Assembly: GCF_003261175.1 (NCBI RefSeq)
Contig: NZ_QLNP01000102.1
Span: 26,503 to 90,502 of the forward strand
Direction of reading: 5' to 3'
DNA: 64,000 nt
Source: Arthrobacter globiformis
Lineage (GTDB): Bacteria > Actinomycetota > Actinomycetes > Actinomycetales > Micrococcaceae
Shown: positions 6,575-39,034 of the stretch, piece after piece
Layout: each line of letters opens with the position of its first letter
How positions within the stretch are numbered: position 1 is the first letter of the stretch
Notes under the pieces: model-generated
What the model saw: only the letters and a program-made list of their open reading frames with translations
Database searches by the model: none
Told to the model about the DNA's origin: nothing
Made by a program: the position numbers and the translations under genes

Positions 6575-6897
6575 ATCAGCTTAGCGATGCCGAACTGGAC
6601 CGCCTCTTCCAGGCGTTCGCGGACACCACCCGGCGGGACATCATGCGCCGGGTAGCGGTGGGGGAGTACTCGGTGACCGGCCTGGCGGCCCTCTACGCCA
6701 TGAGCTTTGCCGCCGTCCAGAAGCACGTGGCGGTGTTGGAGCGCGCCTCCCTGGTCACCAAGGAGAAGCGCGGAAGGGAGCAGATCGTGCGGGGCAATCA
6801 TGACGGCCTGAAGGAAGCCCGCCGGCTGCTTGACGAGTACGAGGCGATCTGGCGGCAGCGCGTCGCCCGGATCGCAGACATCCTGGCTGAAGAATAG
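6565..6897 (+). CDS. ArsR-family HTH regulator
   Basis: A 110-residue winged-helix protein. The region YSVTGLAALYAMSFAAVQKHVAVLERASLVT (about residues 32-62) is the helix-turn-helix; the wing follows (KEKRGREQIV). The ArsR metal-binding cysteine motif is absent, as expected for the subgroup that pairs with SRPBCC/AHSA1 proteins. The likely ligand is therefore organic or unknown. It starts essentially at the predicted transcription start and is followed by the SRPBCC gene after 13 bases. Self-regulation through the 6555-6574 palindrome is inferred. Confidence 0.9.
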   Translation: MVVDQLSDAELDRLFQAFADTTRRDIMRRVAVGEYSVTGLAALYAMSFAAVQKHVAVLERASLVTKEKRGREQIVRGNHDGLKEARRLLDEYEAIWRQRVARIADILAEE

Positions 6898-6910
6898 GAA
6901 GGGTCCGGCA

Positions 6911-7408
6911 ATGACGGTTATCAGTTCCACCAAGAACCCAGAGGCGCTCAGCTTCACCCTCGTGGCAGAATTCGACGCCGACGTGAAACGCGTCTGGCAG
7001 ATCTGGGAAGACCCGCGGCAGCTCGAGCGCTGGTGGGGACCGCCCACCTATCCGGCGACCTTCAGCCAGTACGAATTCACCCCCGGCGGCGAGGCTTCCT
7101 ATTACATGACGGGCCCGGACGGCGAGAAGCCCCGCGGCTGGTGGCGCATCACCGACATCCAGGCGCCGAACCACCTCGAGTTCGACGACGGGTTCGCCGA
7201 CGACGACGGCGCTCCGGTCGAGGCCATGGGCGCCGCGCACGCAACCGTCACGCTGGAGGACGTCGGCGGCCGGACCCGGATGACCGTCCAGTCCGTCTTC
7301 CAGTCCGAAGAGCAGATGAACCAGATGATGGAGATGGGCATGGAGGAGGGAATGAAGGAGGCCGCCGGACAGATCGACGCCCTCCTGGCCGAGCCCGCCC
7401 GTGCCTGA
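6911..7408 (+). CDS. SRPBCC/AHSA1 domain protein
   Basis: A 165-residue START-like barrel of the activator-of-Hsp90-ATPase-1 type. The start ATG has GGAAGGG 8-9 bases before it. The pattern is typical: F-x-A-D-V-K-R-V-W-Q-I-W-E-D-P, then LERWWGPPTYPA, GWWRITDIQAPNHLEF and a C-terminal helix GMEEGMKEAAGQIDALL. Such domains bind hydrophobic ligands, and with a partner ArsR they form a common two-gene unit. The ligand and enzymatic role are unknown. Confidence 0.9.
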   Translation: MTVISSTKNPEALSFTLVAEFDADVKRVWQIWEDPRQLERWWGPPTYPATFSQYEFTPGGEASYYMTGPDGEKPRGWWRITDIQAPNHLEFDDGFADDDGAPVEAMGAAHATVTLEDVGGRTRMTVQSVFQSEEQMNQMMEMGMEEGMKEAAGQIDALLAEPARA

Positions 7409-7457
7409 CGGGCTGCCCGGATAGTCGGTAAACTGCCCGGTTTATCCGGCGCAACGC

Positions 7458-7496
7458 AAGAGGACGACGGCGGGAATGTCCCGCCGTCGTCCTCTT
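7458..7496. terminator. Bidirectional hairpin terminator
   Basis: A perfect 18-base inverted repeat (AAGAGGACGACGGCGGGA, 3-base loop, reverse complement) between convergent genes ending at 7408 and 7518. The A/T ends give short A and T runs in both directions. It contains the CGACGGCGGG core seen in other hairpins of this window. Confidence 0.85.
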
Positions 7497-7517
7497 ACGT
7501 TCTGTCCGGGGTGCTGC

Positions 7518-7700
7518 CTAGAGGGCAGCGGTGTTCAGGCTGAGCGTGAAGGTGTTCGGGCCGCTAAGGGTGACGGCGACGTCGCTCTTCTTTGCGTTGG
7601 CCCGGCTCGAGAAATCGTGCACCAGCGTCTCCAGCGTGTGGTTCACTGCAGAACGGTCCCAGATCTTGATCGTCATTGATTCGGCGGTCTCAAAGGTCAT
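7518..7700 (-). CDS. Small hypothetical protein
   Basis: A 60-residue reading frame that reads as MTFETAESMTIKIWDRS and ends in TFTLSLNTAAL. Its composition is balanced and not GC-forced, and it converges on the bidirectional hairpin 21 bases beyond its stop, both arguing that it is a gene. An alternative ATG is at 7676. No strong ribosome site is visible and I do not recognise a domain. Confidence 0.6.
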   Translation of the reverse strand: MTFETAESMTIKIWDRSAVNHTLETLVHDFSSRANAKKSDVAVTLSGPNTFTLSLNTAAL

Positions 7701-7972
7701 TTTTCAGTGCTTTCGTGTCTGGGCATGGCGCCAATGCGATGCCGCGGAACAGGGCAGCCCAGGAACGCTCGGAGGCCTCAGGCAGCTCGACGAGCTCACC
7801 GGTTTGGCCTCATTGCGTCCACCAGGATTTTGTTGTGTTTGAACTTCTGAACCACTTGCAGAAAAGCGTATTCCTTCGTGGTTCCATTCCATGATGCACA
7901 GGCGCGGGAGGGCTTTTCAAACGGTTTGGCCCGAAACGGCGGGTGAGGTTTGCCACATACAGGGTTACAGTG

Positions 7973-8641
7973 CTACCCCTCGGTGAGGACGGCGATGGCG
8001 CGGCGGCCCAGGCTCCCCACCACGTGACGCTGCATGATTTCGCGGGCGCGGACGGCGTCGCCGGCCACCACCGCATCGGCGATCGCGATGTGTTCCTCGC
8101 GGACGCGCTTGCGGTCCTTCTCGGAGTCCTTCTGGCTCTGCAGGCCGATCTGGCGGTACCGGTCGGCCTTGTCCCATAGGCCCTCAAGGATTCCGATGAG
8201 CAGGGGGTTGTGCGAGGCCCGGTACACAGCCCGGTGGAATTCGCGGTGCGCCGTCATGGCGTCCAGGTCTGCGGCGTCGTGCAGCGGCGTCAGCTGCTTC
8301 AGCGCGGCCTGGATGTCCTCGATATCGGCAGGTGTCCGGCTCTCGGCCGCCAGCCCTGCGGCCAGCGGGTCCAGGTTCTCGCGGAGGACGTACAGGTCGC
8401 GGGCCTCGTCCGCGGTGAGGGACGCCACCCGGGCATCCCGGTGCGACTCCAGCTGCACCAGCCCCTCTGCGGCCAGCCGGCGCAGCGCCTCACGCAGGGG
8501 CGTGGTGCTGACGCCGATCTCGTGGGCGAGCTGCCCCTGGCTGAGCACGGAACCGTGGCCGATCTCCCCGGTCAGGATCCGGCGGCGCAGTTCCTCGTAG
8601 GCGTACGCGCTCTTGGTCAGTGCTACGGGCGGTTGGGCCAC
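7973..8641 (-). CDS. GntR-family regulator (FCD/FadR subgroup)
   Basis: About 222 residues. The N-terminal winged helix contains AYEELRRRILTGEIGHGSVLSQGQLAHEIGVSTTPLREALRRLAAEGLV in pieces: the GntR 'L-x-x-x-I-x-x-G-x-x' and 'VSTTPLREALRRL' signatures are clear. The C-terminal FCD domain has the metal-binding D/H pattern (for example HREFHRAVY). I chose a GTG at 8641 because AAGGGAG lies 6 bases before it; a GTG at 8665 is an alternative. It is divergent from the aconitase with only about 80 bases between, so it most likely controls both genes and senses a carboxylate. Confidence 0.88.
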   Translation of the reverse strand: MAQPPVALTKSAYAYEELRRRILTGEIGHGSVLSQGQLAHEIGVSTTPLREALRRLAAEGLVQLESHRDARVASLTADEARDLYVLRENLDPLAAGLAAESRTPADIEDIQAALKQLTPLHDAADLDAMTAHREFHRAVYRASHNPLLIGILEGLWDKADRYRQIGLQSQKDSEKDRKRVREEHIAIADAVVAGDAVRAREIMQRHVVGSLGRRAIAVLTEG

Positions 8642-8669
8642 CACTTGCTCCCTTCGGTTTGTCACAGTT

Positions 8670-8691
8670 GTTATAAGTTATAACCTATAAC
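8670..8691. promoter_or_regulatory. Operator between gntR and aconitase
   Basis: A 22-base cluster of overlapping half-sites: GTTATAA, then the 8-base palindrome GTTATAAC, then CTATAAC. The outer arms GTTATA/TATAAC are inverted. AT-rich symmetric DNA in an otherwise GC-rich divergent promoter fits a GntR/FCD operator. Confidence 0.7.
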
Positions 8692-8720
8692 AGCCACCTG
8701 CTCCTTGAGAAAGCAGAACC

Positions 8721-11372
8721 ATGAGTATCGACCCTGCTCCCAGCTTTAGCCCCGGCATCAGGAGCCTCTCCGTCAACGGCGAAGTTCTGCAGTCAGTGGA
8801 CATCGAGGGTGCCTTCGGCTCCGGGTATTCCCGGCTGCCCGTGGTGCTGCGGCTGCTGGCGGAGAACGTGCAGCGGAACATGGCCGGCCAGGAGCGCGAG
8901 CAGGCAATGGATGCCTTGCGGAACTGGCTGGCCACGGGCACCAGCACGGCTGAAATCGAGTTCCTGCCCACCCGGGTGCTGATGCACGACACCACCAGCA
9001 CGCCAGCCTTGGTGGACATCGCGGCCATGAGGGATACGCTCGCCGAGTCCGGGGCCGACCCCATGGCCCTGAACCCGCTGCTGCGCGTGGACGTGTCCAT
9101 CGACCACTCGTTGGCGGTGGAGGAGTACGGGCGCGCCGACGCTGCCGCCCGGAACATCAAGCACGAGATCCGCCGGAACCGGGAGCGGTACCAGTTCCTG
9201 AAGTGGGCGTCCAAGGCTATGAACGGTGTGCACATCAACCCGCCGGGCACGGGCATCATGCACACGATCAACCTCGAGCAGCTGGCCACCGTGGTGACCA
9301 CCATCGAGCGGGACGGCGTCCGGTGGGCGGTGCCGGACATGATGGTGGGCACCGACAGCCACACCCCGATGATCAACGGCCTCGGTGTCCTGGGCTGGGG
9401 CGTCGGCGGGCTGGAAGCGCAGACGGTGATGTTCGGGATGCCTGCCACGCTGCGCATCCCCGACGTCGTCGGCGTGCGCCTGACCGGTGAACTGGCGGCG
9501 GGTACCCTGGCCACCGACCTCGCGCTGGCCGTCACCCAGCGGCTGCGCCAGGTGGGCGTAACGGGGGAGTTCGTCGAGTTCTTCGGCCCCGGAGTCTCGA
9601 CGCTGACCGTCGGTGAGCGCGCCGTCGTCGCCAACATGGCGCCTGAATACGGTGCCACCACCGGCTACTTCCCGATCGACGCGCACGTCCTCGATTACCT
9701 TGCGAGCACCGGCCGCAGCTCGGAACAGACGCGGCTGGTCGAGGCGTATGCCCGGCAGACGTGCCTGTGGTTCGACCCCGAAGCAACGCCGGTCTACACG
9801 AGAATCGTCGACGTCGACCTGTCCGCCGTCGTCATGCACGCCGCCGGCCCGCGGCGTCCCCAGGACCTCCTGCCCTACGGCGGCATCCGCAAGGCACTGG
9901 AAAAGGAGGCCGGCCCGGCCCGCGCCGGCGAGGCAACTGCTGCTGTAGGCGATGACGGCGGACTGCCGGACTTTCCAGTCGCTCTCGCCGCCATCACCAG
10001 CTGCACCAACACCTCGGACCCGCGCCTGCTCATCGCGGCCGGGCTGCTCGCCCGCAATGCCCGCCGCCGCGGCCTGACCGTGCCGGACTGGGTCAAGACC
10101 TCGCTGGCGCCGGGCTCACCAGCGGCGGCCAGCTACCTCAAGCGTGCCGGGCTCGCCGACCACCTGGCCTCCGTGGGGTTCGACATTGTCGGGTTCGGCT
10201 GCACCACCTGCATCGGCAACCCGGGCCCGCTGACGCCGGTGATCGCCAAGGCCCAGGCCGACGGCGTGAGAGAACCGGTGGCGATCCTGTCCGGCAACCG
10301 CAATTTCCCGGGCCGGGTCCACCCGGACGTGGAACTCAGCTTCATCATGTCGCCCCCGCTGGTGGTGGCCTTCGCGCTTGCCGGCGACGCCAAGCGGGAC
10401 CTCAGCGAGGAGCCCGTGCAGCACGCCGCCGACGGCGCTCCGGTCTACCTCAGGGACCTGTGGCCGTCGCGCGACGAGATCGACGACTTCGTGGCCAAAG
10501 CCAACGACCCCGCCGACTTCCGGCGGGACTTCGCCATCGCCAGCCGCGATCCCCAGTGGAAGCGGGTGGAAGCACCGGACGGGTCGCAGTACCCGTGGGA
10601 TGACGGGTCCACCATCCTCCGCCGCCCCCCGTTCGCAGCCATGTCAGAAGGCAGCCTCCTCGGGAAGTTCAGCGCGCATCCGCTCCTGGTGCTCGGCGAC
10701 GACATCACCACCGACCACATTTCACCGGCCAGTGCCATCCCGCCCGCCAGCGGCGTCGCAGACTTCCTGGTGGACAGGGGCGAGGACCGGGGTGACCTCA
10801 ACGTCTTCGCCTCCCGCCGTGGCAACTGGGAGGTCATGGTCCGCGGCGCCTTCCACAACAAATCCGTCCGGAACCTTTTGCAGCCCGACGCGCCGGTGGC
10901 ACACACCATCCACTCGCCGTCGAACGAAACCCTGCCCATCTGGGATGCCGCCCAACGGTACCGGGACGCCGGCGACTCCGTGGTCATGGTGGCCGGCGAG
11001 CGCTACGGCATGGGTTCGTCCCGGGACTGGGCCGCGAAGGCCCAGCGGCTGCTGGGTGTCCGCGCGGTCATCGCCGCCAGCTTTGAACGGATCCACCGCT
11101 CCAACCTCATTGGCATGGGCATCCTCCCGCTGGTCATGCCGGCGGACATGAGGGAGAAGCTCCTCAGCCTCGCACCGGGCGACACGATTGAGCTCGACGC
11201 CCCCGCGGAGCGCCTCCGTCCCCGCTCCGGGATCGCCGCGGCAATTGTCCGCGCGGACGGCACCAGGGAGCCGTTCACGGCCACCACCGCCGTGGAGACG
11301 GGGCTGGAATGCGAGCTCCTCGGCGTCGGCGGCGTCATCCCCATGATCCTGCGGCGGACCTTGGCGGCCTAA
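8721..11372 (+). CDS. Aconitase-family hydratase (aconitate hydratase, AcnA-like)
   Basis: An 883-residue [4Fe-4S] hydro-lyase that follows AcnA along its whole length. Cluster cysteines are in ITSCTNTS and GCTTCIGN. The active-site region SRRGNWEVMVRGAF, the swivel-domain motif GSSRDWAAKAQRLLG and SFERIHRSNLIGMG are present. It would interconvert citrate and isocitrate or a related tricarboxylate. Oddities: the motif after the first metal-site region reads DSHTPM where AcnA usually has DSHTTM, and it sits alone with its own GntR regulator rather than in a TCA context. It could be a second aconitase or act on a different acid such as 2-methylaconitate; sequence alone does not settle it. Confidence 0.88.
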   Translation: MSIDPAPSFSPGIRSLSVNGEVLQSVDIEGAFGSGYSRLPVVLRLLAENVQRNMAGQEREQAMDALRNWLATGTSTAEIEFLPTRVLMHDTTSTPALVDIAAMRDTLAESGADPMALNPLLRVDVSIDHSLAVEEYGRADAAARNIKHEIRRNRERYQFLKWASKAMNGVHINPPGTGIMHTINLEQLATVVTTIERDGVRWAVPDMMVGTDSHTPMINGLGVLGWGVGGLEAQTVMFGMPATLRIPDVVGVRLTGELAAGTLATDLALAVTQRLRQVGVTGEFVEFFGPGVSTLTVGERAVVANMAPEYGATTGYFPIDAHVLDYLASTGRSSEQTRLVEAYARQTCLWFDPEATPVYTRIVDVDLSAVVMHAAGPRRPQDLLPYGGIRKALEKEAGPARAGEATAAVGDDGGLPDFPVALAAITSCTNTSDPRLLIAAGLLARNARRRGLTVPDWVKTSLAPGSPAAASYLKRAGLADHLASVGFDIVGFGCTTCIGNPGPLTPVIAKAQADGVREPVAILSGNRNFPGRVHPDVELSFIMSPPLVVAFALAGDAKRDLSEEPVQHAADGAPVYLRDLWPSRDEIDDFVAKANDPADFRRDFAIASRDPQWKRVEAPDGSQYPWDDGSTILRRPPFAAMSEGSLLGKFSAHPLLVLGDDITTDHISPASAIPPASGVADFLVDRGEDRGDLNVFASRRGNWEVMVRGAFHNKSVRNLLQPDAPVAHTIHSPSNETLPIWDAAQRYRDAGDSVVMVAGERYGMGSSRDWAAKAQRLLGVRAVIAASFERIHRSNLIGMGILPLVMPADMREKLLSLAPGDTIELDAPAERLRPRSGIAAAIVRADGTREPFTATTAVETGLECELLGVGGVIPMILRRTLAA

Positions 11373-11458: not shown

Positions 11459-13222
11459 TTAGCCGATGAGCGCCAGGACCGAGCCGGCGGTGACCACCTG
11501 GCCGGGGCCGGCGGCGACGCCGGAGACGACGCCTCCGCGGTGGGCGGGAACGCTGGTCTCCATCTTCATCGCCTCCAGCACCACCACGGGATCACCCGCT
11601 GCCACATCGGCACCCGGCTCCACGAGCCACTTCACCACGGTGCCGCTCATGGCGGCGCGGAGTTCGGCCGGGTCGGAGGTGCCAGACCCGCCGTCGGGAG
11701 AGCCAGCGGCCGAAGAGGTGGCCAGGCCGCCCGGAAGTGCCTGGCCCGACCGGGCCCAGCCGTCCAGCAGATCCGCCGGAAGCCCGACGGCAAGCCGTCG
11801 GCCGTCCACGTCCACCGTGATGGTGCGCCGCCGGCCTTCGGGAGCGGTGGGGCTGAAGTCGGGATCTGCCGGAATCTGGCCGGCGAAGTCCGTCTCAATC
11901 CAGCGGGTGTGGACGTCCAGGCCGGTCCCGGACGTGAAGTCCGCGGCCTCCACCACGGCGCGGTGGAACGGCAGAACGGTGGCCACACCGGTGATGCTGA
12001 TCTCGGCCAGCGCGCGGCGGGCACGCCGCAGCGCCTGCTGGCGGTCGGCTCCGGTGACGATCAGCTTCGCCAGCAGCGAGTCGAACTGCGGTGCCACGAA
12101 GGAGCCGGAGCGGACGCCGGTGTCCAGCCGGATGCCGGGGCCGGTGGGTGCGGTGAATTCGGTGACGGTGCCGGGGGAGGGCAGGAAGCCGCGCCCCACG
12201 TCCTCGGCGTTGATCCTGAATTCAAAGGCGTGGCCGAGGGGAGCCGGGTCGTCTGTATGGGACAGCCGTTCCCCGGCGGCGATCCGGAACTGCTCCTGGA
12301 CCAGGTCGATCCCGGTGGTTTCCTCGGTGATGGGGTGTTCCACCTGCAGCCGTGTGTTCACCTCGAGGAAGGCGACGGTGCCATCGGCGGCGACCAGGAA
12401 CTCCACCGTCCCCGCACCCGAGTAGCCGGCTTCCCGGCAAACTGCCTTGGCCGCGTCGTAAATCTGGGCCCGCTGCCCGTCGCTGAGGAACGGCGCCGGG
12501 GCCTCCTCCACCAGCTTCTGGTGGCGGCGCTGGAGGGAGCAATCCCGGGTTCCGACGACGATGACGTTGCCGTGAGTATCGGCCAGCACCTGCGCTTCCA
12601 CGTGCCGCGGCCGGTCCAGGTAGCGCTCGACGAAACATTCGCCGCGGCCGAACGCAGCCACCGCCTCTCGAACGGCGGAGTCGAAGGCCTCCTCGACCTC
12701 GTCCATGTTCCGGACCACCTTAAGGCCGCGGCCGCCGCCGCCGAAGGCTGCCTTGATGGCGATGGGGAGCCCGTGCTCCTCCGCGAAGGCGCGGGCCTCG
12801 GCGGCGGATTCCACCGGCCCGTCGCTGCCTGCCACGAGCGGGGCGCCGGCCCGGACCGCGATCTCCCGGGCCGTGATCTTGTTGCCGAGCTGGCGGATGG
12901 CCTCCGGCGACGGGCCGATCCACGCGAGTCCGGCGTCGAGCACCGCCTGCGCAAAATCCGCGTTCTCGGACAGGAAGCCGTACCCGGGGTGGACCGCGTC
13001 CGCCCCCGCAGCGGCTGCCGCGCCGAGGAGCTTCTCGATGTTCAGGTAGGTGTCCGCGGGGGAGTTGCCGCCGAGGCTGAAGGCCTCGTCCGCGGCGGCG
13101 ACGTGCATGGCGTCAGCGTCGATGTCCGCGTACACAGCCACGGAGGCCAGCTGTGCGTCGTCGCAGGCCCGGGCGATCCGGACGGCGATTTCGCCGCGGT
13201 TGGCAATGAGGACCTTGTGCAT
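11459..13222 (-). CDS. Biotin carboxylase with C-terminal biotinyl carrier domain
   Basis: A 587-residue AccC-type protein. Residues 1-450 are the biotin carboxylase: [20 protein letters not shown] at the N-terminus, glycine-rich ATP loop AAFGGGGRG (158-166), and [14 protein letters not shown]. Residues about 515-587 are a BCCP lipoyl-like domain with EAMKMET at 550-556, so Lys553 is the expected biotinylated residue. It carboxylates biotin with ATP and bicarbonate. The start overlaps the stop of the PxpB-PxpC gene (TGATG), so the partner carboxyltransferase is probably the AHS1-AHS2 fusion next door rather than an acetyl-CoA carboxyltransferase; that is inference. Confidence 0.93.
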
Positions 13223-14997
13223 CAGTTGCTCGCTTTTCTTTGTGGAGTCTGTTCGGTGGCGATGCGGAAGCGGATGCTCCCGCCGATCGGGACCTGGGCG
13301 GCCAGGTCGAGCTGGTGGTCCACCACCACGCCGATCACCGGGTAGCCGCCCGTGATGGGATGGTCGGCCAGGAAGAGCACGGGCAGGCCTTCGGGCGGCA
13401 TCTGGATGGCCCCCGCCACTGTTCCTTCGCTGGGCAGTTCACCGGTGCGGCTGCGCTCCAGGGGTGTTCCCTGCAGCCTCATGCCCACGCGGTTGGACTC
13501 CGGCTTGACCGTCCAGTCCTGGGCGCAGAGGGAGTCGATCGCGGCCTGGTCGAACCAGTCAGCGCGCGGTCCGAGGATGATGTCCAGCACGGTGACGCCC
13601 TCGCCGGGGTAATCGGGTTGGATTTCGGGGCTGCCCACGACGCCGGATTCGGCGGCGCTGCCGGCTGGCAGCAGCTGGTTCGCTGCCAGCGGCTGGGGAC
13701 CGATTCCGGACATCGTGTCCGTGGAGCGGCTGCCCAGGACCGGCGGTGCGTCCACGCCGCCGCGGACAGCGACGTAGCTGCGGAAGCCGGCGTCGGGAAC
13801 ACCGATGGTGAGGATTTCGCCGTCGAGCAGGGCGAAGGGCGCGGCCGCCGGGACGGTGCGCTGCCGCTCGGGGACTGCCGGCTCAGCGCCGTCGGGGGAG
13901 GCCGACGGCGTCACAACGGTGAGTGCCGACGGCGCCCCCGCCACGGCCAGGACCTGGTCCCCAACGGCCTGGAGCCTCAGCCCGCCGGAGACGGTTTCGA
14001 TGGCGGCGGCCGACGGCGCGTTCCCGACAAGGCGGTTGGCCCGGCGGAGCGAGGCCCGGTCCAGCGCACCGGCGGCTGAGACGCCAAGGGCCGAATGCCC
14101 CTGCCGGCCTAGGTCCTGGATGAGGCTGTGGATCCCGGGTGACAGGACGCGGAGGCCGGAGGTGGTTTCAGGGACCGCCTGCTGGCTCCCTGTCTGTTGG
14201 CTGTCCGCTTCTGCTGCGCCTGACACTTCCGGTGCCAGCTGGATCACGTCGCGGACGGCACGGAACTGGACGCGGTGCCCGGGGCTGGCAAGCGCTGGTT
14301 CGGGGCGGTCGAGGTCCCACATCTTGGCTCCGGTCCGGCCAATAAGCTGCCAGCCACCCGGTGACTTGCGCGGGTAGACAGCCGAGTAGTTGCCGGCCAA
14401 CGCCACCGATCCCGCCGGGACCCCAGTGCGCGGGGAACTCCGGCGCGGAACTTCCAGGGCCTGGTTCTCGCCCACCATGTAGCCAAAGCCGGGCGCGAAA
14501 CCAGCGAAGGCAACGGTCCAGACCTGGCCGGTGTGGGCTGCGATCACGCCGTCGGCGCCGAGGCCGGTCAGCTGCCCCACCTCGGCGAGATCTTCGCCGT
14601 CGTACACGGTGTCGATGACCACCAAGCCGCCGGCCTGCTCCGCCGGTGCCATGAGGTCCAGCTCCAGGAGGGCCTGCCCGATCCGCCGTGCGGCTGCGGG
14701 GGATTCGGCCCTGACCATGACGGTCTCCGCGGCGGCCAAGACATCCTGTTGGCCCGGAAACGGGGCCTCAAGGAGGGCGGCCTGCAGGGCGAGGACATCC
14801 TGCGTTCCGGAGACCACGGCGAGGATCGTGCGTGTTCCCACCGGCCGCACCGCCCGCACCCGGCCCGGGCGGGCGACGCTCGAAGGCGGAGTGTTTGGGG
14901 GCAGAGTGTTTGGGATTGCCTCCGGCGCGGGCTGGCCTGACGCGGAGGGCACGTCAATGTTGGGGGTTGCCATCGGGTCCTGAATCCGTCGCTTCAT
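13222..14997 (-). CDS. pxpBC: 5-oxoprolinase subunits B and C fused (KipI-KipA / AHS1-AHS2)
   Basis: A 591-residue fusion. The first half is an AHS1/KipI domain ([21 protein letters not shown] in pieces, with '[23 protein letters not shown]'). The second half is an AHS2/KipA domain ('[32 protein letters not shown]', '[15 protein letters not shown]'). In E. coli and Bacillus these are separate proteins that work with PxpA in ATP-dependent 5-oxoproline cleavage. The same two domains form the carboxyltransferase of urea carboxylase. An alternative ATG at 14973 has AGGA before it. The gene is one base from pxpA and overlaps the biotin carboxylase start by one base. A Ser/Gln-rich linker joins the halves. 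Confidence 0.92.
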
Positions 14998-14998
14998 G

Positions 14999-15757
14999 CT
15001 AAACGAAGGCCTTGATGGTGATGCCGGCGGCGTCGAGCGCCTTCTTCACGGCGACAGCCATGGCCACTGCGCCGGGGGAATCCCCGTGGACGCAGACCGA
15101 TTCCGCATTGATCGTCAGCCCGGAGCCGTCGATCGCCGTGATGGCCTCCCCGGTGGTCATCTGCAGGACCCGGGCGGCAACCGCCTCGGGGTCCTCCAGG
15201 ACGGAACCGGGCTGGGAGCGCGACGTCAGCGTGCCGTCCGGGTTGTAGGCACGGTCAGCGAACGCCTCGGAGACTGCGCGGAGCCCGGCTTCCTCCGCGA
15301 GCCGCAGCACCTCGGATCCGGGCAGGCCAAGGATAGGGAGGCCGGGATCCACCGACTTCACTGCGTCCACCACGGCGCGTGCCTGCGCCGTGTTGTGGAC
15401 TATCGCGTTGTACAGGCCGCCGTGCGGCTTGACGTAGCGGACCCGGGTGCCGGCCGTCGCGGCCAGTGCCTGCAGCGCGCCGATCTGGTACACCACGTCG
15501 TCGGCCAGTTCGCGCGGGTCGACGTCCATGTACCGGCGGCCGAATCCGGCCAGATCGCGGTAGCCGACATGCGCCCCGACCACCACGCCGGACTTGGCGG
15601 CGGCCTCGCAGGTTGCCCGGATGACGCTGGGGTCCCCGGCGTGGAATCCGCAGGCCACGTTGGCGCTGGACACGGAAGCCATCATGGCCGCATCGTCGCC
15701 CAGGCTCCATCGCCCGAAGGATTCACCGACGTCACTGTTCAAATCAATTGCGTGCAT
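14999..15757 (-). CDS. pxpA: 5-oxoprolinase subunit A (LamB/YcsF family)
   Basis: A 252-residue protein beginning [17 protein letters not shown], the family's diagnostic start; an ATG four codons upstream (15769) also has a purine-rich site before it. Other conserved parts are [35 protein letters not shown] and [12 protein letters not shown]. The family binds and hydrolyses 5-oxoproline (pyroglutamate) together with PxpB and PxpC, returning glutamate. First gene of the operon pxpA-pxpBC-biotin carboxylase, reading away from the GntR gene at 15862. Confidence 0.93.
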
Positions 15758-15810
15758 TGTGACCCTCATCTCAACTCGTCCTTACACAAGGATGCACCCT
15801 CCCGCGAAAA

Positions 15811-15861: not shown

Positions 15862-16536
15862 ATGGCCACAGTCAATCCGAGTTCAGGCGTATCCCGGTTG
15901 CGCGTCGCGGTGCCCGCGGTGGCCACCCGCGTTGCGAGTGAGCTGCGGCTCCAAATTGCCGAAGGTGCGCTTCTTCCCGGGGCGAAGCTGAAGGAAGAGG
16001 CACTCTCCGAGGAGCTCGGGGTTTCACGCAACACTGTGCGCGAGGCGTTTGCCGAGCTCGCCAGCGAGCGCCTGGTGGTCCGCCAGCCGAACCGCGGCGT
16101 CTTCGTCGCCAGCCTCGAGGTCAGTGACATCCATGACGTCTACGCCGTCCGGCGCGCCATCGAAGTCAGCGCCGTCCGCGGCGGCGGGAGTGCCGAAAGC
16201 ATCGCGGCCGTGCGCGCAGCCGTGGAGGAGGGGAAGCGCGCTGCCGCGGCCGGCGACAGCGAGGGGCTGGGCAGTGCGAACGCGCATTTCCACGGCGCCC
16301 TCGTGGCGATGGCCGGCAGTGAACGCCTGAATGTCATCATGTCGCAGGTGCTGGCTGAAATGCGGCTGTTCTTCCATAAGGCCTCCATAGACGGTGGCTT
16401 CTATCAGGACTACCTGGCTGACAACGACCAGATCTGCAGCGCCCTCGAAGCGGGGGACAATGACCTCGCGGCTGAGCGCCTCCTGTCTTACCTCGCCAGG
16501 TCCGAAGAGCATCAGGCCGCAGTCCACACGTCATAG
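15862..16536 (+). CDS. GntR-family regulator (FCD subgroup) of the pxp locus
   Basis: A 224-residue regulator. The winged helix occupies residues about 12-75 (ATRVASELRLQIAEG, LSEELGVSRNTVREAF, LVVRQPNRGVFVAS) and the FCD effector domain follows (VYAVRRAIEVSAVR, NAHFHGALVAMAG). It lies between the divergent pxp operon and the downstream transporter/hydro-lyase pair, all of which carry the same AT-rich motifs upstream. It is therefore the likely repressor of 5-oxoproline use. Confidence 0.9.
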   Translation: MATVNPSSGVSRLRVAVPAVATRVASELRLQIAEGALLPGAKLKEEALSEELGVSRNTVREAFAELASERLVVRQPNRGVFVASLEVSDIHDVYAVRRAIEVSAVRGGGSAESIAAVRAAVEEGKRAAAAGDSEGLGSANAHFHGALVAMAGSERLNVIMSQVLAEMRLFFHKASIDGGFYQDYLADNDQICSALEAGDNDLAAERLLSYLARSEEHQAAVHTS

Positions 16537-16561: not shown

Positions 16562-16627
16562 AGCGCGAGCGGACACTTGTGGCCCCTGAGAAACGCTTCC
16601 CAGTGGCCACAAGTGTCCGTTCGCGCT
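16562..16627. repeat. 23-bp inverted-repeat element (REP/MITE-like)
   Basis: The left arm 16562-16584 and right arm 16605-16627 match at 22 of 23 bases, around a 20-base loop. The arm core is GCGGACACTTGTGGCC. It follows the GntR stop by 25 bases and can act as a terminator, but the long arms and loop are unlike the other terminators here. The outer 15 bases of the right arm (GTGTCCGTTCGCGCT) recur at 56081-56095. Confidence 0.75.
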
Positions 16628-16679
16628 TAACGGTGCAGCCCTTTGTGCCCCTTGACGGTGTGACGCAGGTCGCGTACAT

Positions 16680-16720
16680 TGTTCAACAAGTTCAGATTGT
16701 TCTACATTTCCACAATCCAA
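16680..16720. promoter_or_regulatory. Putative GntR operator before the MHS transporter
   Basis: TGTTCAACAA (16680-16689) and CCACAATCCAA (16710-16720) repeat elements seen in the pxpA-gntR intergenic region. They lie about 150-190 bases before the transporter start, in a 333-base stretch that otherwise holds only the inverted-repeat element. Confidence 0.55.
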
Positions 16721-16869
16721 CAGAACGCTCCGCATTCGGTGGCTCTCCCGGGGAAGCCGCCAACCAGCCTCAGTGCCCGCGCCTTGTCAACGTCGCAGGC
16801 CCGGGCGGGCTGTACACCAGCGCATCCGCAGCACGACGGATGGCATCCACACTCTTCATGGAGGAACAA

Positions 16870-18231
16870 ATGGCCAATCAATCCGCAATGGCCTCCGCAG
16901 GTTCGAGGCCCGCTGTCGGGCGCAAGGACATGTACAAAGCGTTCGCGGCCAGCCTCACCGGTACCGCGCTGGAGTTCTACGACTTCGCGGTCTACTCCGC
17001 CGCGGCCGCAATTGTTTTCCCGCTGATCTTCTTCCCGGCCTCGGACCCGGTGACGGGCACCCTGCTGGCGTTCTCGACCTACGCGGTGGGCTATATTTCC
17101 CGGCCCGTCGGCGGCATCATTTTCGGCCGGCTGGGCGACGAGATCGGCCGCAAGAAGATCCTGGTCATCACGCTGATGCTGATCGGCGTCGCCACCTTCC
17201 TCATCGGCCTGCTGCCTACCTATGGCAGCATCGGCATCCTGGCCCCGGCCATCCTCGTCTTCCTGCGGTTCGCGCAGGGCGTGGGCGTGGGCGGCGAGTG
17301 GGGCGGCGCTGTCCTGCTGTCCAGCGAATTCGGGGAACCCAGCAGGCGCGGCTTCTGGGCCTCCGCGGCGCAGATCGGCCCGCCCGCAGGCAACCTGCTG
17401 GCCAACGGCGCACTCGCCGTCCTCACGCTGGCCCTCTCCGAGGAGGCCTTCCTGGACTATGGCTGGCGCATAGCGTTCCTGATCTCGGCCGTGCTGGTGG
17501 CGTTCGGGCTGTGGATCCGCCTCAAGCTCGAGGACACCCCCATTTTCAAGGCCATGGAAGCCCGCGGCGACCAGCCCAAGGCCCCGATCAGGGAAGTCCT
17601 CACCACGCAGCGCCGTCCGCTCCTTGCTGCCATGCTCAGCCGCATCGGCCCGGACGTCACCTACGCATTGTGCACCGTCTTCACCCTGACGTACGGCATC
17701 CAGGAACTGGGCTTCGACCGTGGCCAGGTCCTCGTGGCGGTGCTGGTCGGTTCAGGCCTCCAGCTGTTCACGATGCCGCTTGCGGGTGCCATCTCCGACC
17801 GGATCAACCGGCGCCTTGTTTACGGCATCGCGGCAGTGGCTGCCGCTGTCTGGGCCTACCTGTTCTTCATCGTGCTTGAAGGCCGTTCCCCGGTGATGCT
17901 CGTGGTGGGAACCGTACTCGGCCTGCTCTGCCATTCCTTCATGTACGGCCCGCAGGCCGCGTTCGTCGTCGAGCAGTTCACGCCGCGGCTCCGCTCCACC
18001 GGAAGCTCGCTGGCCTACACCTTCGCGGGCATCATCGGCGGCGCCATCGCACCGTTCATGTTCACCCTGCTGCAGAGCACCTTCCACAGCTGGGTCCCGG
18101 TGGCCATCTACCTCAGCGTCGCCTGCCTGCTGACCATCGTGGGCCTGGCCATCGGCCGGGACTCCAATGTGGCGGAGGACGAGGAGTACCTGAACGGATC
18201 CACCGGAATAGTAGAGAGCGGCACACGATGA
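16870..18231 (+). CDS. MFS transporter, metabolite:H+ symporter (MHS) family
   Basis: A 453-residue, 12-helix transporter. I chose the ATG at 16870 because GGAGGAAC lies 5 bases before it. Family marks are '[20 protein letters not shown]' (helix 1), '[21 protein letters not shown]' (the MFS loop 2-3 motif) and '[19 protein letters not shown]'. MHS proteins import organic acids and betaines with protons. It overlaps the YcsI-like gene by ATGA, and its regulatory region shares motifs with the pxp operon, so 5-oxoproline or a related compound is a plausible substrate. Closely similar to the transporter at 20624-22003. Confidence 0.92.
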
Positions 18232-19043
18232 GCCAGGAAAACGCCATGAGCCAGTCGAACAAACTCGTCCCGCCGACCGAAGCCCGCCGGCAGTTCCGCA
18301 GCGGCCTGGTCACCCCCACCTCCGGCTGGAGCGATGGCTACACGCAGGCGAACCTGATAGCTGTGACGGCCGACTACGCCGAGGAATTCCTCGAATTCTG
18401 CCGGCTCAACCCCAAGGCCTGCCCTGTCATCGACGTCATTCCTGCCGGGACGTTCGAAAGTTCCCTCGCCACAGGTTCGGACATCCGCACCGACATCCCC
18501 GCCTACCGGGTGTGGGAGGACGGCGTCCTATCTGCCGAGGTCCCCGACGCCACCCCGCTCTGGCGGGATGACATGGTGGGCGTGCTGATCGGCTGCAGCT
18601 TCACCTTTGAAGCCGCACTGGCCAGCGCGGGCATCCCGCTTCGCCACACCGAAATGGGCCGCAACGTGCCCATGTACCGCACCAGCATCGAGTGCACCCC
18701 GGCAGGGCGGATCCACGGCCCCATGGTGGTCTCGATGCGTCCGATGCCGGCCGAGCTGGTGGAAACGGCAATCAGCGTGACCGCGGAGGTGCCGAAGGTC
18801 CACGGCGCACCGGTCCACGTCGGATCACCTGAGGACCTGGGCATTGCGGACATCTCCCGCCCCGACTTCGGCGATGCCGTGGACATCCGGCCCGGGGAAG
18901 TACCGGTCTTCTGGGCCTGCGGCGTCACACCGCAGAGCGCCGTGATGGCGTCCCGGCCGGCGTTCGCGATCAGCCACGCCCCGGGGCACATGTTCATCAC
19001 GGACATCCCGGAAAGCACGTACCGCGTGCCCGCAGGGAACTAG
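18228..19043 (+). CDS. Putative hydro-lyase, DUF1445 (YcsI/D-glutamate cyclase family)
   Basis: A 271-residue DUF1445 protein. Typical strings are [41 protein letters not shown]-like '[14 protein letters not shown]' and a terminal '[13 protein letters not shown]'. Family members include mitochondrial D-glutamate cyclase, which converts D-glutamate to 5-oxo-D-proline, so pairing with a 5-oxoprolinase locus makes chemical sense. In Bacillus ycsI is also beside ycsF and kipI/kipA. The start overlaps the transporter stop; an in-frame ATG 18 bases later is possible. Confidence 0.88.
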
Positions 19044-19117: not shown

Positions 19118-19912
19118 CTAGAAACTCCGGGCGTTCGCCAGCACGGGCAGCTTTCTGCGCACATCCGCGATGACGGCCGGATCGATGTCCACCACAGCCA
19201 GTTCAGGCTCGCCGCCCAGCGCCATCAGCGGAGAACCCAGCGGGGAAACCACCGCGCTGTGGCCGATCCCGGTAGGAGCGGCGCCGGCGGACGGAAGCCC
19301 GAGGCTGGCCGGATCGCCCTGCCCGCAGGCCACCACAAACGTGGTGCTGTCCACGGCCCGGGCGCGGACGAGCAGGTTCCACTGCTCGGCTTTTCCTTCC
19401 CCGGCGCCCCAGGACGCGCAGACGATGTTGATGGCGGCCCCGGCCCTCGCGTTGGCCGTGAACAGCGCCGGGAAGCGCACGTCGTAGCAGGTGGCCAGGC
19501 CGATGGCGGTGCCGTTGAGCTCGAAGATCACCGGCGATGTCCCGGCGTCCACGGAATCGGATTCGGCAAAGCCGAACGCGTCGAAGAGGTGGATCTTGTC
19601 GTACGACGTGTCGATGCCCGGGCCGGTCACCAGCAGGGTGTTCCGCACCCTTCCGCCCTCCCCGGGCGTGAACATGCCAACGACGACGGCGATATCCAGT
19701 TCCCTGGCGATGGCCCGCACCGCCGTGGCCCACGGCCCGTCCAGCGGTTCGGCGATATCTGCCAGCGGATTGCCGAAGGCACACATGGAGGCCTCGGGGA
19801 ACACCACCAGTTCGGCGCCTGCCGCTTTTGCCCGGCTGGCGTAGTCTCGCACGAGCCCCAGATTGGCCGTGAGGTCGGCGCTGCTGACGATCTGGGCGAC
19901 TGCTAAACGCAT
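19118..19912 (-). CDS. Carbon-nitrogen hydrolase (nitrilase superfamily)
   Basis: A 264-residue amidase/nitrilase-fold enzyme. The Glu-Lys-Cys triad is Glu40 (VFPEASM), Lys106 (YDKIHLFD) and Cys142 (ATCYDVRFP). These residues attack C-N bonds of amides, omega-amides or carbamoyl compounds. The ATG is preceded by AGAAGAG. It is divergent from the GntR gene at 19945 with only 32 bases between, and downstream on the other side lie an MHS importer and DUF2848, so it may hydrolyse an imported amide. Confidence 0.92.
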   Translation of the reverse strand: MRLAVAQIVSSADLTANLGLVRDYASRAKAAGAELVVFPEASMCAFGNPLADIAEPLDGPWATAVRAIARELDIAVVVGMFTPGEGGRVRNTLLVTGPGIDTSYDKIHLFDAFGFAESDSVDAGTSPVIFELNGTAIGLATCYDVRFPALFTANARAGAAINIVCASWGAGEGKAEQWNLLVRARAVDSTTFVVACGQGDPASLGLPSAGAAPTGIGHSAVVSPLGSPLMALGGEPELAVVDIDPAVIADVRRKLPVLANARSF

Positions 19913-36187: not shown

Positions 36188-37729
36188 TTAGAGGGGGAGG
36201 GGGACGAGGCCGCCGAGGTGGCGGTATTTTTCGAGCCGCTGGGGGAGGAGTTCGCCCATCCCGGACGCCGAGAGCGCCGCCAGTTCGTACTCGATCGCCT
36301 GCCCCAGCCGGTGGCAGAACGCCCGGCCTTCGTGGGCGGCGTCGGGGCGTTCGTCCACGATGTGCTCCACCATGCCATGGGCGTGGAGTGAGGCGACGTT
36401 GACGCCCTGTGCCTCAGACATCGCCGGTGCGAACTCGGTGCTGCGGTGCATGATGGCGCTCGCACCCTCGGGCGGCAGCGGTGACAGCCAGGCATGCTGG
36501 GCCGCGATGGTGCGGTCGGCCGGGAACAGAGCCAGCGCCCCGCCGCCGGTGCCCTGGCCCATCAGGACGGACACGGTGGGTGAGTTCAGGCCGATGAGGT
36601 CGTGGAGCGACCTGGCGATTTCGCCGGCCAGCCCGCCTTCTTCGGCTTCCTTTGACAGGGCCGCGCCGCCGGTGTCGATGACCGTCACCAGGGGCAGCCC
36701 AAGTTCCTCGGCCAGCCGCATGCCGCGGCGGGCTTCACGCAGCGATGCCGGACCCATGGCGGTCTGCTGGGAGGGCCGGGGCCGGGTGTGTCCGATGACC
36801 ACGCAGGATTTCTGGCCGAAGCGGGCCAGTGCCAGCAGCAGCCCGGGGTCCTTTTCGCCCTGGCCGGTGCCGTTGAGCGGAAGCACGTCGCGGGCCCCGT
36901 AGGCCAGCAGCTGCCGCAGGTCAGGGCGGCGCGGGTTCCGGGAGATTTCGATCGATTCCCAGGCTCCGGCGTCGGACGGTTTCACGGACAGCGTCCGGGG
37001 CGGCCGGATCTGCGCGGGCGGTCCGGCGACCAGGATGCTCAGGGCGCGGTCGACGACGTCTGACAGCTGCCACGGCGGGACCACCGCGTCCACGAGCCCC
37101 TTGTCGAAGAGGTTCTCGGCCACCTGGACGTTCTCCGGAAACGGTGCACCGTACAGCGCCTCGTAGACCCGCGGCCCGAGGAACCCGAGGAGGGAGCCGG
37201 GTTCGGCCACCGTGATGTGCCCGAGGGAGCCCCAGGAGGCCATGACGCCGCCGGTGGTGGGGTGCCGGAGGTAGACCAGGTACGGCAGGCCGGCCTGCCG
37301 GTGCGCCCGGACCGCCGCGCTGATCTTCACCATGGACAGGAACGCGATAGTGCCTTCCTGCATGCGGGTGCCCCCCGACGCCGGACCGGCCAGAAGCGGA
37401 AGCCCTTCCCGGGTGGCGCGTTCGACGGCGTTCACGATGCGTTCGGCTGCGGCGAGGCCGATGGAGCCGGCCAGGAACCGGAACTCGCTGACGATGACGG
37501 CCACACGGCGGCCGCGGATGAGGCCCTCGCCGGTGAGGACTGATTCGTCGACGCCGGACTTCTCCCGGGCCGCTGCCAGCTCCTGCCGGTATTCCGGGCT
37601 GGGTTCCGGGTCCACCACCGGGGAGTCCCAGGATTGGTAGGAGCCGGGATCGAGCACGGCGGCGATGAGTTCGGCAGCATCAAGGTGCCGGACCTTCTGA
37701 CCTCTGCCCATATTCTGACCTGAGCCCAT
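36188..37729 (-). CDS. Acyl-CoA carboxyltransferase (AccD-AccA fused type)
   Basis: A 513-residue protein with both crotonase-like halves: an AccD part (ASGGTRMQEGTIAFL, PTTGGVMASWGSLG) and an AccA part (GHTRPRP, VTVIDTGGAALSKEAEEGG, MGQGTGGGALAL). The zinc-ribbon cysteines of E. coli AccD are absent. I chose the ATG at 37729, just after the CoA-transferase stop. It would move CO2 between biotin and an acyl-CoA. Beside a CoA-transferase and a MatC carrier, it may run backwards to decarboxylate malonyl-CoA; that is inference. No biotin carboxylase gene lies in this cluster. Confidence 0.88.
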   Translation of the reverse strand: MGSGQNMGRGQKVRHLDAAELIAAVLDPGSYQSWDSPVVDPEPSPEYRQELAAAREKSGVDESVLTGEGLIRGRRVAVIVSEFRFLAGSIGLAAAERIVNAVERATREGLPLLAGPASGGTRMQEGTIAFLSMVKISAAVRAHRQAGLPYLVYLRHPTTGGVMASWGSLGHITVAEPGSLLGFLGPRVYEALYGAPFPENVQVAENLFDKGLVDAVVPPWQLSDVVDRALSILVAGPPAQIRPPRTLSVKPSDAGAWESIEISRNPRRPDLRQLLAYGARDVLPLNGTGQGEKDPGLLLALARFGQKSCVVIGHTRPRPSQQTAMGPASLREARRGMRLAEELGLPLVTVIDTGGAALSKEAEEGGLAGEIARSLHDLIGLNSPTVSVLMGQGTGGGALALFPADRTIAAQHAWLSPLPPEGASAIMHRSTEFAPAMSEAQGVNVASLHAHGMVEHIVDERPDAAHEGRAFCHRLGQAIEYELAALSASGMGELLPQRLEKYRHLGGLVPLPL

Positions 37730-37731
37730 AT

Positions 37732-38967
37732 TCAGCGGCCTTCCCCGGCGGCGGCAGCAGCGGCGTCGGCCGGGACAAGCCCCAGCCATTGCCGGATCTG
37801 CTCGCCGTCCTGGTCCAGCAGCGGCGGCGCAGTGTGGGCCTTCAGCGTGGTTTCCGCGGTGTCCGCGGCGCTGAAAAAGCGCAGCGGCGGGCCGGGCAGG
37901 GTGACGTTGCCGAGGATCTTATGGTCGACGTCGATCACCAGGCCCTGGGAGTGGACCTGCTCCCACTCATAGACCTCGTCCAGGGTGCGGACCTTGCCGG
38001 CCGGGATCCCGGCGTCGTTCAGCTTTGCGAGCAGCGGCTCCGCCTCGAACTCGGCGAACGCGCGCTCCACCTCCTCGATGACCTTTTCCCGGTTCCGGAC
38101 GCGCTCCGCGTTGGACGCGAACTCCGGACGGTCCGCGTCGATGCCGAACGTGGACGCGAACGTGCGCCACAGCTTCTCGCTGCCCACGCTGATCTGGACG
38201 CGGCCCTGCCGGCAATGGAACAGTCCGTACGGCGCGATGGAGGGGTGGTGGTTGCCCTGCGCCTTGGGGACCTCACCGGCAACGGTGGCCCGGGTGCCCT
38301 GGAACGCGTGCACGCCGATGAGGGCGGCGAGCAGCGAGGTGCGCACGATCTGCCCCTGGCCCGTCCGCTCGCGCTGCAGCAGCGCCGCGAGCGTGCCGAA
38401 CGCCCCGTACATGCCGGAGAGCAGGTCCGCGATGGGCACGCCCACCCGCTGCGGATCGTCCGGGCCGGAACCGGTCAGGGACATCAGCCCGGCCTCACCC
38501 TGCAGGATCTGGTCGTAGCCGCTCCGGCGTGATTCGGGGCCGTCGTGGCCGAAACCGGTGATGGACAGGACCACCAGGGCAGGGTTCAGCGCGTGCATCT
38601 CCGCGGCGGAGAAGCCGAGCCGGTCCAGCACGCCGGGGCGGAAGTTTTCGATGACGACGTCGGCGCGTTCCAGCAGTTCACGCAGCACCGTCCGCCCGTC
38701 GTCGCTCTTCAGGTCCAGGGCGATGGATTCCTTGTTGCGGTTGCAGGAGAGGAAGTACGTGGCCTGGGGATCATCCTCGGGGCCGACGAACGGCGGTCCC
38801 CAGCCGCGCGTGTCGTCTCCCGTGCCGGGGTTCTCAACCTTGATGACCCGTGCGCCGAGGTCCGCGAGCATCATGCCGGCGTGGGGTCCGGCCAGCGCAC
38901 GGCTCAGGTCCACTACAAGGTAGCCGGCGAGGGGCCCTTCGGGCTGAGGCGTGGATTCATGGCTCAT
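37732..38967 (-). CDS. CaiB/BaiF family III CoA-transferase
   Basis: A 411-residue enzyme. The start MSHESTPQPEGPLAGY is preceded by AGAAGGAAC; a longer frame upstream is not protein-like. Family marks are 'LVVDLSRALAGPHAGMMLADLGARVIKVE', 'RNKESIALDLKS', 'ENFRPGVLDRLG', and the region VPIADLLSGMYGAF, in which Asp181 aligns with the catalytic Asp. It transfers CoA between carboxylic acids (for example succinyl-CoA or acetyl-CoA to a dicarboxylate). Between a MatC carrier and a carboxyltransferase, malonate is the likely acceptor. Confidence 0.92.
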   Translation of the reverse strand: MSHESTPQPEGPLAGYLVVDLSRALAGPHAGMMLADLGARVIKVENPGTGDDTRGWGPPFVGPEDDPQATYFLSCNRNKESIALDLKSDDGRTVLRELLERADVVIENFRPGVLDRLGFSAAEMHALNPALVVLSITGFGHDGPESRRSGYDQILQGEAGLMSLTGSGPDDPQRVGVPIADLLSGMYGAFGTLAALLQRERTGQGQIVRTSLLAALIGVHAFQGTRATVAGEVPKAQGNHHPSIAPYGLFHCRQGRVQISVGSEKLWRTFASTFGIDADRPEFASNAERVRNREKVIEEVERAFAEFEAEPLLAKLNDAGIPAGKVRTLDEVYEWEQVHSQGLVIDVDHKILGNVTLPGPPLRFFSAADTAETTLKAHTAPPLLDQDGEQIRQWLGLVPADAAAAAAGEGR

Positions 38968-39034
38968 GCTGGGTGTTCCTTCTCTTGCTTGGAGGGGCTG
39001 CTGGTGCTGGTCCCGGGCATTTACGTGGGGCCGG

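Follow-up and report, generated by a model that had tools for sequence, protein, structure and literature searches.

In a 64,000-nucleotide stretch of Arthrobacter globiformis DNA (contig NZ_QLNP01000102.1, positions 26,503 to 90,502; hereafter the window), three closely packed genes encode PxpA, a fusion of PxpB and PxpC (PxpBC), and a biotin carboxylase (BC) joined to a biotin carboxyl carrier protein (BCCP), and together they probably specify a biotin-dependent 5-oxoprolinase. The operon is real and widespread, not peculiar to this genome, and the case for a partnership of PxpBC with BC-BCCP is strong. At issue is how PxpABC enzymes use ATP, since PxpA and PxpBC match no ATP-binding Pfam family; the BC is the only one of the three operon proteins that does, which supports a biotin-dependent enzyme and makes a carboxybiotin route the simplest account. 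A literature search, thin on subscription papers and bioRxiv, returned no biotin-dependent 5-oxoprolinase, no lactam, 5-oxoproline or pyroglutamate carboxylase, and no paper that mentions PDB entry 9YX5.

The original prediction had described pxpBC as an AHS1-AHS2 fusion and its neighbour as a BC joined to a BCCP with Lys553, in genes spaced by one base or overlapping, and all of this is borne out. Pfam places CT_C_D (177 bits) before CT_A_B (259 bits) in PxpBC, while BC-BCCP carries Biotin_carb_N, CPSase_L_D2, Biotin_carb_C and Biotin_lipoyl, each exceeding its cut-off. A motif check locates the biotin acceptor Lys553 within an intact EAMKM and finds the ATP-grasp and substrate motifs of the BC domain present, which we take to have their usual meaning. 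A single base separates pxpA from pxpBC, and the pxpBC stop and the BC start share one base in TGATG. PxpA matches PF03746 LamB_YcsF (343 bits) and NCBIfam PRK05406.1-3 (376.5 bits, cut-off 226); it stands first in the operon as predicted, but the gene runs to 15769, and 15757, formerly given as its end, is an in-frame ATG four codons in.

Genes and sites of the pxp cluster, in positions of the window
Feature	Coordinates	Strand	Basis and remarks
BC-BCCP fusion	11459..13222	-	587 aa, 60.9 kDa; Pfam, motif check, tree with other pxp-linked BC-BCCPs
PxpB-PxpC (AHS1-AHS2) fusion, presumed carboxyltransferase	13222..14997	-	591 aa, 60.7 kDa; Pfam, AlphaFold2 model
PxpA (LamB/YcsF), presumed ring-opening hydrolase	14999..15769	-	256 aa, alternative start 15757; Pfam, NCBIfam
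PxpR-type operator-like site ATGTTCAACAA	15810..15820	+	divergent pxpA/gntR promoter; one mismatch to TTGTTCAACAA
GntR/FCD regulator, presumed PxpR-like 5-oxoproline sensor	15862..16536	+	Pfam; ligand inferred from operator and position
Major facilitator superfamily (MFS) metabolite/H+ symporter family, presumably importing 5-oxoproline or a related compound	16579..18231	+	Pfam/NCBIfam
Second operator-like site, exact TTGTTCAACAA	16679..16689	+	5' of the MFS transporter domain
D-glutamate cyclase family protein by Pfam, putative hydro-lyase by NCBIfam	18228..19043	+	PF07286 228 bits; PRK05463 402.5/324

Compared with the PxpABC systems of B. subtilis, C. glutamicum and E. coli (YbgL/YbgJ/YbgK), the operon has the same three Pxp families and, in its cluster, a transporter and a GntR-type regulator with the C. 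glutamicum PxpR operator core; it differs in having PxpB and PxpC in one chain and a BC-BCCP gene that overlaps pxpBC by one base. Compared with urea carboxylase (K. lactis, 3va7/5i8i; the bacterial one-chain protein at locus L109), it shares the carboxyltransferase (CT) fold and, as had been claimed, all of the BC, AHS1, AHS2 and BCCP modules. The module order differs: urea carboxylase has AHS2 before AHS1, whereas PxpBC begins with AHS1; moreover, the modules lie on two polypeptides, PxpA stands where allophanate hydrolase would, and Arg185 replaces the general base K1605. The urea-carboxylase model TIGR02712 gives the two chains 524.6 and 140.6 bits against a cut-off of 1303.85, and by curated scores, module order and the K1605-to-Arg change a strictly defined split urea carboxylase is rejected. 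The AccC models also stay below their cut-offs on BC-BCCP (TIGR00514, 545.7/626.5; PRK08591, 568.1/597).

We infer the following course of reaction, including the transfer of the carboxyl group and the atom that accepts it. With ATP and bicarbonate, the BC domain would carboxylate the biotin carried by Lys553, the chemistry expected of its family with motifs intact; PxpBC, as a CT of the urea-carboxylase type, would pass the carboxyl group to the lactam nitrogen of 5-oxoproline; and PxpA would hydrolyse the activated ring, giving N-carboxyglutamate, which would break down to glutamate and CO2. The net reaction would be 5-oxoproline + ATP + water to glutamate + ADP + Pi, with CO2/bicarbonate recycled, and its logic would parallel that of urea carboxylase and allophanate hydrolase acting in turn. 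The GntR protein would provide induction, the MFS protein uptake and the D-glutamate cyclase family protein a source of D-glutamate.

The first line of evidence is co-occurrence. Genome contigs were scanned with an AHS1 alignment, and among the best 80 loci of a larger set PxpBC is fused at 46, with a BC-BCCP directly downstream at 37 of these, whereas none of the 34 loci with separate PxpB and PxpC has a BC in the stretch examined (Fisher p = 2e-14, ancestry ignored). The check proposed with the original prediction, conserved co-occurrence of BC-BCCP with pxpBC fusions across genomes, is thus positive. Two of the loci counted as fused with BC are imperfect: L161 ends inside its BC, and L110, whose frames are broken, falls under separate with BC in the later classification. 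A genus-level Fisher test, in which Nocardioides was entered in two classes, is equally blind to ancestry. The closest named relatives among these loci are from Arthrobacter-group genera, and the PxpA-PxpBC-BC-BCCP operon spans Actinomycetota and Alpha-, Beta- and Gammaproteobacteria. PxpA, PxpBC and BC also adjoin on annotated plasmids of Shinella, Neorhizobium and Sinorhizobium, and the same domains occur on an unannotated Arthrobacter plasmid; a Tsukamurella plasmid carries the fusion without a BC.

Uncorrected for ancestry, a linked BC stands beside the fusion at 23/23 loci in Pseudomonadota and 24/37 in Actinomycetota, a shortfall that is expected if AccA3 can stand in. On the scale of whole genomes the contrast is weak: a BC match (PF02785) is absent from 2 of 72 Actinomycetota with PxpBC and from 22 of 224 others (296 in all; p = 0.08), the PxpBC state of four of the 24 BC-less genomes having been inferred from the tally because no names were listed. 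The two genomes that match PxpBC and lack a BC are G064, which is 62% complete, and G103, which is 94% complete, gives no PF02785 match and contains locus L108. That locus holds, at 6763-8943, a 727-residue AHS2-AHS1 protein in urea-carboxylase order, without a BC. Of the 71 other PxpBC-matched Actinomycetota genomes, 60 were fetched and 11 left out; at least seven of the 11 (G163, G098, G184, G227, G152, G248, G270) have a BC only a few kb from PxpBC on one contig.

The pairing gains independent support from different gene orders whose BCs belong to other lineages. In draws not selected for BC, 13 of 56 PxpB/PxpC pairs in Actinomycetota and 13 of 33 in Pseudomonadota have a BC no more than 6.5 kb away, against about 2% under a deliberately generous assumed chance rate (five BC genes, 13 kb, 3 Mb), and chance is rejected as the cause. 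Besides operons of the window's type (type A; L050, L231, L234, L238, L241, L243, L244, L246, with PxpB and PxpC unfused in L244), four arrangements recur: PxpB-PxpC-BCCP-BC-cyclase with PxpA mostly further on (L061, L091, L093, L097-L099), BC divergent from PxpB-PxpC-PxpA-BCCP (L088, L090, L094, L096), PxpA-BCCP-BC-PxpB-PxpC (L254, L256, L257) and BCCP-BC-PxpB-PxpC-PxpA (L227, L247). Fifteen of 48 places, whose frames exceed 1,100 codons, were excluded as resembling urea carboxylase. In BC trees that took in 31 and 19 of the 48 fused loci with BC (L199, which duplicates the L170/L241 gene, was omitted), the BCs of the non-window orders form two supported groups outside the window's clade, and a third set of BCs beside PxpB/PxpC includes a Pseudomonas AccC-like protein; on the PxpC tree, BC linkage requires 14 changes. 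No CoA carboxyltransferase is found among ten flanking proteins of L061, L227, L256 and L257.

Within the window's own clade, the window-type BC-BCCPs and AccA3-type proteins of this and other actinobacteria form one group (100/100), in a tree that does not include M. smegmatis AccA3 itself; a topology with the 19 type-A BC rows as a clade apart from the AccA3-type rows is not rejected (p-AU 0.25). The linked BC of L073 falls on the AccA3 side of the clade and may be a chance neighbour or an AccA gene.

In the A. globiformis genome, the window BC is 59-60% identical to the AccA3-type protein; by contig, the other BC proteins are 60% (C58), 49% (C42), 47% (C36) and 45% (C15) identical to it, and it is the C58 protein that matches mycobacterial AccA3 better (835.9 bits, against 785.7 for the window BC-BCCP). 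Of its four PF01039 matches, three have a BC less than 10 kb away, on C58, C15 and C42, and the fourth, a weak match, is a CT beta-alpha fusion at 36188-37789 of the window, more than 20 kb from the operon. No AccD-type CT therefore stands beside the window BC-BCCP, which is apparently a surplus copy that lacks its own AccD.

The AlphaFold2 model of PxpBC (mean predicted local distance difference test score 86) matches M. smegmatis MSMEG_0435-0436, TTHA0988, E. coli YbgJK and K. lactis urea carboxylase, with structural-alignment identities of 43% for AHS2 (3mml_G) and 48% for AHS1 (9yx5_W). PDB entry 9yx5 holds AHS1 and AHS2 chains beside AccA3, and its title describes a complex of LCC, the long-chain acyl-CoA carboxylase, with MSMEG_0435-0436 bound, which gives independent support for a biotin-dependent enzyme. 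As in the window, AHS1/AHS2 homologues there occur together with a BC-BCCP (see also 3mml); in M. smegmatis, by contrast, the AHS genes are separate, AccA3 serves as the BC-BCCP and belongs to an acyl-CoA carboxylase, and the title names no reaction. The earlier proposal that PxpBC is the CT of BC-BCCP is thus upheld as to the pairing, by adjacency, varied BC lineages, the CT fold and 9yx5, while N-carboxylation itself we can only infer. The same binding to an acyl-CoA carboxylase complex, and the match of the KipI C-terminal domain to the PxpB part, could also fit an AHS1-AHS2 unit that holds BC-BCCP as a KipI-like inhibitor or regulator of acyl-CoA carboxylases and not as a CT. We consider such a regulator very improbable, as it would leave unexplained both the presence of PxpA and a 5-oxoproline-type operator in one operon and a BC-BCCP without AccD.

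That the substrate is 5-oxoproline or its D form is suggested by a PxpR-type operator and D-glutamate cyclase neighbours. PxpR of C. glutamicum is described in the cited passage of PMC13274462 as a GntR repressor binding 5-oxoproline, with the proposed site AGATTGTTCAACAATCT, and TTGTTCAACAA is the core of the operator as printed there. The window has three matches to this core with at most one mismatch (0.15 expected; the site at 16679 counts on both strands), and the sites at 16679 and 15810 both lie in upstream regions of the cluster; the full 17-mer operator matches at the second site with three mismatches (0.03 expected). Across loci we sought the 11-base core within 350 bases 5' of the PxpA domain, with shuffles that preserve base composition only, leaving 28 sets unscored that had no same-strand PxpA or fewer than 200 upstream bases. 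It occurs at 20 of 48 fused loci with BC, the window included (about 0.01 expected), at 1/71 separate sets without BC, at 1/18 separate sets with BC (L110, the type-A locus with broken frames) and at 0/10 fused sets without BC. Eighteen of the 20 are Actinomycetota, partly close kin, and two are Pseudomonadota (L190, L234). We regard this as independent support for 5-oxoproline. A D-glutamate cyclase homologue lies nearby at 22/48 fused and 8/20 separate sets with BC, and at 0/13 fused sets without BC.

These neighbours also bear on whether PxpBC and BC-BCCP carboxylate another amide, another lactam or urea, with PxpA hydrolysing the product. The CT fold common to urea carboxylase, the Arg in place of K1605, which may mean a different substrate, and a nitrilase-family gene at 19118-19912 would suit that idea; the operator and cyclase neighbours indicate 5-oxoproline instead, and some sampled genomes have a separate one-chain urea carboxylase. 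We judge another substrate improbable. It follows that the original suggestion of a biotin step rather than, or besides, plain ATP-driven 5-oxoprolinase activity is probably wrong in its "rather than": with 5-oxoproline as the substrate, this 5-oxoprolinase would use its ATP in the biotin step.

A number of observations weigh against a biotin-dependent 5-oxoprolinase. On the PxpC tree, a single supported set of 57 comprises 48 fused loci with BC, eight fused loci without BC and one unfused relative, so that most of the association of fusion with BC reflects one inherited operon, and an independent-pairs test of fusion against BC linkage finds two pairs on supported branches, neither concordant. 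Sets with separate PxpB and PxpC have no BC nearby in 95 of 115 cases, and the A. globiformis genome itself has a second, divergent PxpABC set (L015, G000:C73, 5081-7771) with no BC in the 16 kb read. The D-glutamate cyclase homologue is also found at 21 of the 95 separate sets without BC and hence marks pxp loci and not the biotin type. PxpBC falls below the equivalog cut-offs of TIGR00370 (109.6 bits, cut-off 145.55) and NF045499 (171.9 bits, cut-off 500), the broader domain model TIGR00724 being the only curated PxpB/PxpC model it passes (238.4 over 230.2). The title of 9yx5 is silent on the role of AHS1-AHS2 binding. In the passages cited, PMC13274462 assumes that PxpB and PxpC phosphorylate 5-oxoproline, and PMC8453981 states, citing another paper, that co-purified PxpB and PxpC hydrolyse ATP, and notes that no bicarbonate requirement was reported in earlier oxoprolinase work. 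Finally, K1605, the general base of the K. lactis urea amidolyase CT (PMC5770610, cited passage), aligns with Arg185 of the window PxpBC, by a position counted along the alignment.

Alternatively, PxpABC could be a plain phosphorylating, ATP-driven 5-oxoprolinase and BC-BCCP a hitchhiking acyl-CoA carboxylase alpha subunit: PxpABC is common without a nearby BC, phosphorylation is what the cited passages of PMC13274462 and PMC8453981 assume, and the window BC shares 59-60% identity with the AccA3-type protein of the genome. Such an enzyme nevertheless seems unlikely to us, because BC linkage recurs across BC lineages and gene orders, neither PxpA nor PxpBC has an ATP-binding Pfam family, the operon lacks AccD, and the 9yx5 complex joins AHS1-AHS2 to a BC-BCCP.

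The distribution of the residue at the K1605 position shows that the chemistry does not simply repeat that of urea carboxylase. Arg occupies it in 48/48 fused sets with BC, 13/13 fused sets without BC and 94/95 separate sets without BC, so the main type has Arg with or without a linked BC, consistent with a single mechanism, of either kind, for both. Lys is present in 8/20 separate sets with BC (L088, L090, L094, L096, L104, L254, L256, L257) and in two of the only three urea-carboxylase rows compared. The only Lys among separate sets scored as without BC is that of L095, in which a BCCP is present by the contig end and a BC is absent from the stretch examined; all nine PxpB sets with the urea-carboxylase-type Lys in the sample thus adjoin a BC or BCCP, which speaks for the biotin-dependent reading, and they may represent another substrate group.

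A wider proposal is possible, but its parts taken together are somewhat doubtful: that all PxpABC enzymes are biotin-dependent lactam carboxylase-hydrolases, unlinked ones borrowing AccA3 (mycobacteria) or AccB/AccC (E. coli, B. subtilis); that the P. putida 5-oxoprolinase of the Meister group has BC-BCCP and PxpBC as its component A and PxpA as its component B; and that AccA3 of actinobacteria and the lactam-carboxylase subunit have a common origin. To our knowledge, the archaeal Thermococcales have PxpBC and lack a BC. The P. putida enzyme, as quoted in the cited passage of PMC8453981, consists of a component A, which has polypeptides of 64 and 51 kDa and 5-oxoproline-dependent ATPase activity, and a ring-opening component B of 82 kDa. 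At two Pseudomonas loci, BC-BCCP is 60.5-60.6 kDa, PxpA 26.8-26.9 kDa (a trimer being about 80) and PxpBC a 537-codon frame of about 56-57 kDa by sized relatives; the fusion is found in 6 of the 13 Pseudomonas genomes searched. The sizes lie near those of the components, while the cited passage names no genes and mentions no biotin, and the fit, which also speaks for the biotin-dependent reading of the window operon, is suggestive only.

If the window operon does encode a biotin-dependent 5-oxoprolinase, lactams would join the substrates of biotin carboxylases, the presence of AHS1-AHS2 on a mycobacterial acyl-CoA carboxylase in 9yx5 would be explained, and a mild way of opening lactams would be suggested. 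It would also correct annotations such as that in the cited passage of PMC12427679, a 2025 paper that there does not state whether the genes adjoin, where Lactiplantibacillus pentosus has an extra BCCP and BC, as well as pxpB and pxpC, absent from L. plantarum and L. paraplantarum, and the additional pair is interpreted as a further acetyl-CoA carboxylase.

The remaining observations concern neighbouring and related genes. The MFS protein matches its families only from about residue 110-130 onwards, so its true start is probably downstream of the listed GTG. Between gntR and the MFS domain, at 16562-16627, lies an inverted repeat with 31-base arms that are 90% complementary and a 4-base loop, a probable terminator or other hairpin. 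At L015, the neighbours are short-chain dehydrogenase/reductase genes and an MFS-like transporter, and the divergent PxpB has GAPAGSPMMDG at the place of another 11-residue motif; contig C32 has a pxpA gene, and the 13 kb read there shows neither PxpB nor PxpC. In Arthrobacter sp. Leaf69 (L110, 5914-8729), the pxpA and pxpC frames are broken, possibly by sequencing errors or decay. Elsewhere in the window, the fused CT beta-alpha gene stands beside a family III CoA-transferase (36188-39174), with a DASS-like transporter at 39035-40423, and the former region is possibly a separate acyl-CoA carboxylase or decarboxylase cluster.

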